A DNA stretch of 64,000 nt from Gloeopeniophorella convolvens (lineage: Eukaryota; Basidiomycota; Agaricomycetes; Russulales), in NCBI GenBank assembly GCA_022496205.1, contig WTXD01000041.1, forward strand, positions 1 to 64,000. Reading direction: 5' to 3'. The position numbers and the translations under genes were made by a program. The notes under the pieces are model-generated. The model ran no database searches. It had not been told where the DNA came from and worked only from the letters and a program-made list of their open reading frames with translations. Below, one piece after another: positions 22,353-25,724 of this stretch (the first letter of the stretch is position 1; every line of letters begins with the position of its first letter).

Positions 22353-22514
22353 GCTATGTAACAGCCGAGAAGGTCGGCCGAGGGTCGATGTATGAGGCTG
22401 AATAAAGCAAAGCGATCAAGGCGAAAGCGATTTCGCCATCGAATCCCACGGACATTTCACCAAAGTCTTGCCCAGCGGTTAACGCTCGCCGTCGTCTCTT
22501 TCTCCTCACCACCG
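22353..22514. promoter_or_regulatory. Short shared promoter of VPS71 and the lyase-mevalonate kinase gene
   Basis: The two divergent genes have candidate start codons about 160 nt apart, so they must share regulatory DNA. No clear TATA box is seen, as expected for housekeeping promoters. Confidence 0.5.
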
Positions 22515-25500
22515 ATGACCTCCGCAACCCCGAATCAGGGCCTTATCAGAAACCATGAACTGCCGACACCCGAGCCAGAGTCTCCGTTCCGTCCGCGCAA
22601 GCCGTATCGCTTCGGTACTCTCTGTGCGACTGTAGACAACCCCGATCAAAAGGATCAATATGGGTCGAGTTCTGTTCCCATCTACCAGACTTCCACCTTC
22701 AAGGGTGTAGATGGTCAGTACGACTATTCGAGGAGTGGGAACCCCACTCGAAGCCATCTCGGTGAGCATCGCGTTCTTCAGCTGCGCTACGGCATGTGCC
22801 CGCTTCGCCCCGCTCAACTTGGATTACAGAGCACCATGTCGCCAAGATATCTTCGGCCGTACATGCTTTCGCTGTATCCTCTGGAATGGCCGCGCTAGAT
22901 GTCATCCTTCGCCTCCTCAAGCCAGGAGACGAGGTCATCGCAGGAGATGATTTGTACGGTGGCACGAACCGCCTCCTCACGTACCTCAAAACCCATGGCG
23001 GTGTAGTTGTACACCATGTTGACACGACTAACCCCGCAAATCTCCATGCGCACATCAAGGCTGGGAAAACTGCCATGGTTCTGTTGGAAAGCCCGACTAA
23101 TCCGCTCCTTAAGATCGCTGACCTCGCGACCATCGCGGCTCAAGTCAAGGAACGCGCCCCCGATGCGCTGGTCGTTGTTGACAACACTATGATGAGCCCC
23201 TACCTGCAACGCCCCCTCGAATATGGGGCAGATATCGTATACGACAGCGCCACGAAGTATCTCAGTGGACACCATGATCTTATGGCCGGAATCATCACGT
23301 GTAACCGCGATGATGTCGCGAAGGTCAGCTATCTCGCCGTCAGTTGGTGAAGAGGACTTGCTGACGGATGAGACCTGTGCATAGCAAATTGGATTTGTTA
23401 TCAATGCAGTTGGCAATGCGCTCACACCATTCGACTGCTTCCTTCTGTTGCGTGGTGTCAAGACGTTAGCTATCCGCATGGAGCGCCAACAAGCCTCCGC
23501 GATGGCCGTTGCGACTGTGCTCGACCGTCTTGGTTTCAAAGTTCATTACCCTGGGCTAGCGAACCATCCCGGAAGGGAGGTTCACGAGCGCAACGCGGAT
23601 GGTTACGGTGCAGTTCTCTCCTTCACCACAGGTGACAAGGCGCTTTCGGAACGCATTGTCGGTGCCACGCGATTGTGGGGCATCTCTGTGTCTTTCGGTT
23701 GTGTCAATTCGTTGATCAGCATGCCCTGTGTTATGTCGTATGTATTCTACGTCTTGACTACGAGCACGGTCTAACCCCGTCTGTCCATCCAGTCACGCGT
23801 CCATTGATCCTGCTGTGCGCGCTGAGCGTGGTTTGCCCGAGGATCTTATTCGCCTGTGCGTGGGTATTGAGGACCCTGCCGACCTCATCGACGACCTCGA
23901 GCACGCTCTCCTCGAGGCTGGCGCCATCACTGTCTCTGCCGGTGCTGACCAACACCAATTCGTGCGCGCTACAGTTCCCCGCGGAGGTGTGGCCATCAGC
24001 CGCGCTGTTGAGAAACTCGCCTACAATGAGCGCCCAAGGAAGAGGGAAGACCGCGAATGGTTCGTCAGCGCACCTGGGAAGGTTATCTTGTTCGGAGAGC
24101 ATGCTGTCGTTCATGGTGTTGTGGGTTATGATCCCATCTATCTTCCGGACCTCTGTGCTGATTAATATTCAGACTGCAGTTGCCGCTTCGGTCGATCTGC
24201 GCTGCTATGGCCTCTCATCACCTCGTCACGATGGCAAGGTTGCACTGCGCTTCGCAGACTTGGGCAATTTTTCGCAGGAATGGGTCCTTGACGACCTCCC
24301 ATGGGATAGTGTCACGTCTGTCGGCGTCGGTGACCTGCACCCAGAGGCACTTGATCCCCGGCTCGTCGATGCTATTCAACAACGCGGGCTGCCACCCGAC
24401 ATAGATCAAAATCAGCAAGCCAAAGCCGCCGCAGTAGCTTTCTTGTATCTGTACATGGTCATGACCCACGGTGGGGAAAGGTGACGATCGGCAACCTCCT
24501 GGCCGTGGCGACAGTCGGTGCTGACTTTGATTACGTTCAGGCCATCCTTCAGCTTCACTGTGAGATCAACGTTGCCCGTCGGGGCAGGTCTCGGTAGCTC
24601 TGCCTCTTTCTCCACTTGCGTTGCGACTGCTCTTCTCCTCCTGCACCAACGGATCTCGCTACCTGCTCTCCCAGAACCTTCACGAGAACCTGATCGAGGG
24701 AACGATGATCCCGGGCATGTCCATGTCTCCCATGCCGGGCGCCGTGCCCTCCCACACAAAATCGCAGAGGAGGTCAACCGATGGGCTTTTGTTGCCGAGA
24801 AGATATTGCATGGGAACCCGAGTGGCGTAGATAATTCGGTCGCTGTATTTGGAGGAGCGCTTGCATATACTCGACCTGGGTTCGGACGAAAGAGCGGGAT
24901 GGAGACTATCCAGGGGTGAGCTCTTGGACATATAATGGGTGACCAAAAGCTATACAACTCACTTGATTTCTGATACAGGTTCAAGTCCTTCCGTTTCTTG
25001 CTGACAGATTCGCGCGTTCCGCGAGACACTAAGAAGCTTGTAGCTGGAGTGGCTGCGAAGAAACAAGCGGTACGTCGACCTTGCATGCTGTCCAACCCAC
25101 AATACCTGGTTCACCTGACGTTGCTATTGATGCAGGAACCAGAACTTGTCGAGCGCACCCTCGAGGCTATTCAAAGCATCAGCAATGAGGCTCGCCGCGC
25201 TCTCGGCGATCCTGAACTACCGCGAGATGCTCTGCTTTCCGCACTCGCAGCGCTCATCAACGAGAACCATGCCCACCTTGTTACCCTCGGAGTCTCGCAT
25301 GCTGTTCTCGAAACCATCAGGGCTCAGACCGCAGCTGAGCCGTACTGCTTGAGCACGAAGCTTACCGGTGCTGGCGGCGGTGGATGCGCTGTCACCCTCA
25401 TCCCAGATGGTGAGGAATCCTTTTAAGATTCATTTTCTAGTTGTATACTGACAACGAAACCTAGATGTGAAAGACAATGTGTTGGATACACTGAAAGCTG

Positions 25501-25724
25501 CCCTTACGGATTCGGGATACCGCCCGTACCTGACATCCGTCGGGGGCAGCGGCCTCGGCATCCTCTCGCCTTATGATCCAGCGAACTACGCACCAGAAGC
25601 CCCTCTTACGCCTCCTGAGAACTCGCCGGATGAACTGCCCTCGCTGCGTGGAGCCTTCCAGGTTCAAGGAACCGAGGAACTGTCCGCGTGGGCGGAGCAG
25701 CGCGGCCGTTGGTTGTACGTCTAA
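22515..25724 (+). CDS. Cystathionine beta-lyase-like / mevalonate kinase fusion protein
   Basis: Nine exons form one continuous 909-codon frame: 22515-22761, 22830-23323, 23385-23737, 23793-24120, 24173-24480, 24541-24915, 24979-25069, 25136-25409, 25465-25724. Residues 1-410 are a PLP-dependent Cys/Met-metabolism enzyme: SVPIYQTSTFKG, YDYSRSGNPTRSHLEHH, SSGMAALDVI, the PLP lysine in SATKYLSGHHDLMAG (K225), and LIRLCVGIEDPADLIDDLE. Residues 411-454 are a linker with no Met. Residues 455-909 are mevalonate kinase (ERG12): VSAPGKVILFGEHAVVHGV, PVGAGLGSSASFS, HGNPSGVDNSV, KLTGAGGGGCAVTLIP. The junction lies inside exon 4 (23793-24120), with no stop and no in-frame ATG between the halves. Enzyme 1 belongs to methionine biosynthesis (cystathionine to homocysteine); enzyme 2 phosphorylates mevalonate. 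Lyase versus gamma-synthase is not certain. Confidence 0.9.

Follow-up and report, generated by a model that had tools for sequence, protein, structure and literature searches.

A protein in which a cystathionine beta-lyase leads into a mevalonate kinase has been known since 2012 and is widespread in basidiomycetes; the papers that describe it are cited here from the available portions of their texts. Liu et al. (PMC3342255, 2012) named the fusion 'metC-MVK', reported it from 12 basidiomycetes but not from Laccaria bicolor, and inferred its origin in the ancestor of Basidiomycota. In their survey it was the only match to both enzymes, with an average length of ~886 aa; a 16-aa insertion was noted in the kinase of seven fungi. 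Lignosus rhinocerotis has a lyase/kinase fusion of 918 aa, GME67_g, as its sole mevalonate kinase candidate (PMC4129116, 2014). In mycelia of Pleurocybella the fusion was found as an mRNA unigene, and the authors call for more study (PMC3720577, 2013). A sequence-only reading of the locus treated below had held that no bifunctional protein of this kind was described; these three papers contradict it.

The literature on the fusion yielded no tests of its activities or of its purpose: neither enzyme assays nor western blots nor junction peptides turned up, and in the portions available, the Pleurocybella unigene (PMC3720577) is the one transcript report. For Xanthophyllomyces, four peptides spanning the kinase domain led to the naming of a gel spot as mevalonate kinase (PMC3224108); as the available text gives the spot without a mass, it does not favour a single chain and is no clear evidence against one.

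The gene and its two halves

The gene considered here comes from Gloeopeniophorella convolvens (Russulales, Agaricomycetes) and lies on a contig of 231,255 bases (C341) in a genome of 36.7 Mb. Introns included, it occupies 22515..25724 on the + strand of the window, by which we mean the whole stretch of 64,000 nucleotides that was analysed. Nine exons (22515-22761, 22830-23323, 23385-23737, 23793-24120, 24173-24480, 24541-24915, 24979-25069, 25136-25409 and 25465-25724, all +) alternate with eight introns of 52-68 bp, all GT-AG, and the spliced chain has 909 aa and a mass of 97.8 kDa. That nine exons make one 909-codon frame had been proposed from the letters of the DNA, and the proposal is borne out: the translation is identical, letter for letter, to a public protein of this species (P0001), whose database name is 'cystathionine beta-lyase' only. 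An alternative acceptor for intron 5, at 24552 (905 aa), was dropped for 24540 (909 aa) after comparison with P0001, with which the 909-aa model agrees in full. Modest further support comes from the RPSF stretch retained by this model: 81 of 211 relatives have it in its strict form, and 103 of the 211 under a looser pattern. Upstream, on the opposite strand, lies a HIT zinc finger frame (PF04438; 21675-21872, -), and the two genes appear to be divergently arranged.

The lyase half comes first (22515..23928, +; about residues 1-410), encoded by exons 1-3 together with the 5' part of exon 4. It matches the Cys/Met PLP enzyme family (PF01053) over residues 41-404 with 433.8 bits, and its score of 539.9 bits against the cystathionine beta-lyase model TIGR01329 exceeds the curated equivalog cut-off of 487.5. 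By sequence alignment its best solved relative is the Arabidopsis cystathionine beta-lyase, 1ibj. The motif SATKYLSGHHD occupies residues 222-232 (codon start 23246); the lysine of this motif is the one that binds PLP in the family.

The kinase half (24058..25724, +; residues 454-909) runs from the end of exon 4 to exon 9. It scores 210 bits against the mevalonate kinase model TIGR00549 (curated equivalog cut-off 163.05), exceeds the cut-offs of PF00288 and PF08544, and aligns with the mammalian mevalonate kinase 1kvk across nearly its whole length. WFVSAPGK begins at residue 454, GLGSSAS at 593 and GAGGGG at 810; APGKVILFGEH and NPSGVDN are also present. The three GHMP motifs are in place. 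With both curated cut-offs passed, the identities first proposed for the two halves stand, as does the statement that the motifs of each are intact. A C-terminal tail peculiar to the fusion was considered and rejected: a Trp lies within the last 16 residues of 209/211 fused proteins, but equally in stand-alone kinases (29 of 31 named ones), and is therefore not special to the fusion.

Between the halves stands a linker of about 45 residues (23929..24057, +; residues 411-453), wholly within exon 4. One open frame joins lyase and kinase, as the sequence-only reading had it, and its further claim of a junction inside exon 4 that holds no stop codon, in-frame ATG or intron agrees with the spliced translation. 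The only ATGs in 23929-24066 stand at 24026 and 24057, neither of them in frame; the in-frame Met codons that flank the junction are those of residues 360 (23721) and 364 (23733) in the lyase and, next, 569 inside the kinase. The first intron past the junction, intron 4 (24121..24172, +), falls within the kinase half, and so no intron separates the two enzymes.

Linkers could be parsed in 201 of the 211 relatives (10 were left unparsed) and measure 36-132 residues, with a median of 46; P0001 has 48 by the same count. Most of the linker is variable, with one exception: Arg423 of P0001 is invariant in 44/44 aligned relatives, and Tyr, Phe or Leu stands two residues before it. In a predicted structure of the whole chain, built with 44 aligned sequences (mean pLDDT 79.4, pTM 0.55), short strands are placed at 410-412 and 421-423, the latter including Arg423, and are followed by a low-confidence stretch, 427-444. 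The two predicted strands are taken as a hairpin after the last lyase helix; the Arg423 element may belong to the lyase as such and not to the fusion. Compared with known folds, the model gives target-normalised TM-scores of 0.84 (2r3v), 0.86 (1kvk) and 0.80 (1ibj); we take 1kvk and 2r3v to be the rat and human mevalonate kinases. The lyase half is the weaker part of the model (pLDDT below 50 at residues 45-74 and 347-367; rmsd 10.3 on superposition with 1ibj), and the low pTM means that the placement of the two halves relative to each other is not fixed by it.

Distribution and copy number

A search with the whole chain gave 1328 matches, and every one of the best 120 listed has Pfam labels both for PF01053 and for one or more GHMP kinase domains (120/120); chains matching both families, which the sequence-only reading had proposed to look for among related proteomes, are thus found. 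Candidates in this search were restricted to 0.55-1.75 times the query length (~498-1584 aa), so that taken alone it cannot show that split forms are absent. Separate genes with a stop at the junction site, which the same reading had named as evidence against a fusion, were not seen in the listed relatives; the available text of PMC3342255 names Laccaria bicolor as an exception.

A profile built from six divergent members reached further. The best 120 of its 3179 matches include Ustilaginomycotina (Malassezia, Ustilago, Tilletia), Pucciniomycotina (Puccinia, Microbotryum, Sporobolomyces) and Dacrymycetes (Dacryopinax), all with both parts by Pfam labels. Fused proteins thus span three basidiomycete subphyla: Agaricomycotina, Ustilaginomycotina and Pucciniomycotina. 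Lineages were looked up for four named species; going by species names, we take all named fused proteins among the best 120 of 1328 and the best 120 of 3179 to be basidiomycetes, some rows being unnamed. No named member of Tremellomycetes or Wallemiomycetes was found among the matches listed.

From the listings of both searches a set of 211 proteins (813-1249 aa) was drawn, and in all 211 the lyase motif lies ahead of the kinase motif. Ten motifs were sought in this set, with these counts: PLP lysine 211, TNP 211, S[VIL]S[FL]G-type 210, DNT 205, GIE 203, YxRxxNPT 195, GLGSS[AG] 210, HGxPSG[VI]DN 209, TGAGGGGC 209 and PGK...GEH 205. All ten are present in 172 of the 211; the gaps in the other 39, where at least one is absent, are probably faults of gene models or the effect of strict patterns. 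Four Lentinula fusion proteins (P0140, P0145, P0146, P0156) are without some stretches, GLGSSAS among them; they may be decayed copies or the outcome of poor gene prediction. In Malassezia, two fusions, P0261 (1210 aa) and P0262 (1249 aa), are labelled by Pfam with PF00155 and PF00266 as well, and exceed the remaining named Malassezia entries of that listing (830-863 aa) by ~350-400 aa; an additional fusion event or a merger of gene models would account for this.

A search with the kinase half, which admits stand-alone kinases, returned 7229 matches, and among the best 120 listed there was no named full-length basidiomycete stand-alone kinase. These 120 rows divide into 28 in which lyase residues precede the kinase start, two in which a lyase motif is present and the kinase start is missing, 39 whose kinase start lies in the first 120 aa with no lyase motif, and 51 that are without the kinase start motif. 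Of the 39 early starters 30 are named, and we take none of these to be basidiomycete. The other nine are unnamed: P0126, P0127 and P0168 start with lyase tail or linker, and P0154 and P0181 begin in linker-like sequence; P0222, P0229 and P0240 seem from their sequences to resemble non-basidiomycete kinases; P0190, with unrelated sequence upstream of the kinase, is a possible stand-alone exception. The 51 rows include two stand-alone kinases that the start motif missed (P0204, from Basidiobolus, and P0232, unnamed), three unnamed proteins of 408-420 aa that begin downstream of that motif (P0147, P0161, P0173), and two that are named mevalonate kinase and are without it (P0141, Inonotus, 308 aa; P0202, Rhizoctonia, 309 aa); the remainder were taken as fragments.

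A tree of the kinase parts separates the 25 fused sequences from the stand-alone kinases of other fungi, all ten of which group together with a support of 0.944; a single fusion that preceded the divergence of the subphyla would give this pattern. With the root placed on the stand-alone kinases, the two rusts diverge earliest and Pucciniomycotina are split up, in conflict with accepted taxonomy, perhaps through a long-branch effect. Distances in the lyase half and the kinase half are correlated (r 0.873 over 300 pairs of the 25 sequences, a value reached by none of 2000 permutations), but such correlation is expected for any two genes of the same species, and all it shows is that no later exchange of halves took place.

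Within its own genome this gene is the sole match to the kinase half; the lyase half finds this gene and, more weakly, pieces on two other contigs, C212 (37-42%) and C381 (30-44%, over short stretches). Models of cystathionine gamma-synthase/lyase fit the C212 piece better than beta-lyase does, and the C381 piece is best fitted by O-acetylhomoserine sulfhydrylase; both are part-genes that score below cut-off. Further PF01053 pieces on C57, C13 and C372 match the broad family only. The other GHMP matches are a homoserine kinase (C334), a diphosphomevalonate decarboxylase (C383), an ispE-like gene (C146) and a gene on C2 that galactokinase fits best, below its cut-off (a partial exon). A second copy of either enzyme was not found in this genome by an exon-by-exon search in which only the best candidates were scored, a procedure that a diverged copy could escape.

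At C146:334767-336083 (+) (the same as L009:835-2151 and L017:4768-6084), outside the window, an uninterrupted frame of 439 aa matches the model for ispE, which is the MEP-pathway CDP-methylerythritol kinase, with 205.7 bits against a cut-off of 138.7. An importin-repeat frame lies ~1.7 kb upstream and a P450 frame ~1.7 kb downstream, so that the contig looks fungal; two further frames nearby have no Pfam match. IspG (PF04551) and IspF (PF02542) found no match in this genome. This looks like an orphan MEP-type kinase in a relative of mushrooms, perhaps of bacterial origin; a search of the literature yielded no account of it.

Working of the fused chain and competing explanations

Judged on its sequence, the gene is very probably a basidiomycete metC-MVK whose product is a bifunctional chain, with two independent active sites held at 1:1 and no channelling between them. 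One polypeptide with two independent sites would be the simplest reading: the lyase half would use PLP to convert cystathionine to homocysteine, pyruvate and ammonia, and the kinase half would phosphorylate mevalonate with ATP. Cystathionine beta-lyases of this type are tetramers; the lyase part might likewise build an oligomer and bear the kinases on flexible linkers. Any coupling would be one of amount and place, with one promoter and, because the chain is single, both activities in a 1:1 ratio. The products of the lyase and the mevalonate used by the kinase have no common reaction, and substrate channelling is not expected where two reactions share no metabolite.

As a hypothesis, the promoter might answer to sterol status. 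In Ganoderma lingzhi, SREBP directly targets the mevalonate kinase gene, whose expression goes up on SREBP overexpression (PMC9810662). The available text of that paper does not mention cystathionine; we infer that the target is likely the fused gene, because proteins of other Ganoderma species are fused and in view of the distribution in PMC3342255. If so, sterol control would extend to methionine synthesis there, and with a similarly responsive promoter in G. convolvens the supply of homocysteine would rise with sterol synthesis. An SREBP motif at 22486-22496, just upstream of the start codon, was set aside as uninformative for this gene, since the window holds 64 matches (18.9 expected). 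A more ambitious proposal makes of the fusion a phylum-wide regulatory device, in which sterol sensing by Sre1/SREBP sets both enzymes, the supply of homocysteine and methyl groups tracks sterols, and the Arg423 element provides a docking site for the kinase or passes the state of one half to the other; we think this unlikely. Targeting to peroxisomes, where yeast Str3 resides, was also considered as the reason for the fusion and set aside for lack of support: 0/211 fused proteins have a PTS1-like C-terminus, and 0/211 have a PTS2-like stretch among residues 1-40.

The remaining alternatives concern whether the two enzymes really stay together. A separate kinase might also be made, from an internal promoter with a start at Met360 or Met364, from a 5' exon elsewhere or from a non-AUG codon, and the fusion would then be one of two products. 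Both Met codons are indeed in frame at the end of exon 3, and 75 of the 201 parsed linkers of relatives contain at least one Met; but the other 126 have none, which argues that there is no conserved internal kinase start. Here, moreover, no in-frame ATG lies between residues 364 and 569, the two at the junction being out of frame, and a start at 569 would remove the conserved PGK motif near the kinase N-terminus. We regard a separately made kinase as quite improbable. The chain could instead be cut after translation, at the flexible linker, to release free lyase and free kinase. The low-confidence stretch within the linker and the wide range of linker lengths among relatives would suit such a cut, and Arg423, near the lyase, could in principle be part of a protease site; a fusion kept throughout a phylum hardly suggests a need for separate enzymes, though this argument is weak. 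Cleavage of this kind seems very improbable to us.

Least credible of all, to the point where it can practically be dismissed, is an artefact of annotation or assembly that merged two neighbouring genes. Automatic gene models do merge neighbours, but the junction here sits within a single exon, so that a misplaced intron is no explanation. The same order of parts recurs in many other named species and in the Pleurocybella mRNA unigene (PMC3720577); its occurrence in every one of the 211 relatives excludes chance or a merging error.

The preferred reading, a bifunctional metC-MVK with independent sites, has practical consequences. Two unlinked enzymes of core metabolism, apparently single-copy here, seem to have remained joined ever since the common ancestor of an entire fungal phylum. 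In studies of mushroom sterol or methionine genes the two enzymes are best handled as one locus, as a knock-out of either would remove both; databases often label the fusion protein by its lyase alone. Tests of why the fusion has been kept were not found in the literature on it.

Comparison with described enzymes

Set beside stand-alone enzymes, each half of the chain is familiar. The N-terminal half resembles the Arabidopsis cystathionine beta-lyase (1ibj) in sequence and in its PLP motif, and a fold search also finds 1ibj for this half, though with an rmsd of 10.3; unlike the fusion chain, that lyase has no kinase attached. The C-terminal half has its fold and GHMP motifs in common with stand-alone mevalonate kinases, both those of solved structure (1kvk, 2r3v) and those of Mucoromycota and Ascomycota. 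Among the named non-basidiomycete rows, 30 in all, the kinase motif is found in the first 120 residues, with no lyase motif ahead of it.

The described fusions come far closer. GME67_g of Lignosus rhinocerotis (PMC4129116) is, on the available text, the same fusion in another species, with 918 aa against 909. The metC-MVK of PMC3342255 has the same lyase-then-kinase order, a similar length (~886 aa on average against 909) and the same standing as sole copy of both enzymes; in the portion of that paper available, nothing essential sets it apart from the G. convolvens gene, which adds another species.
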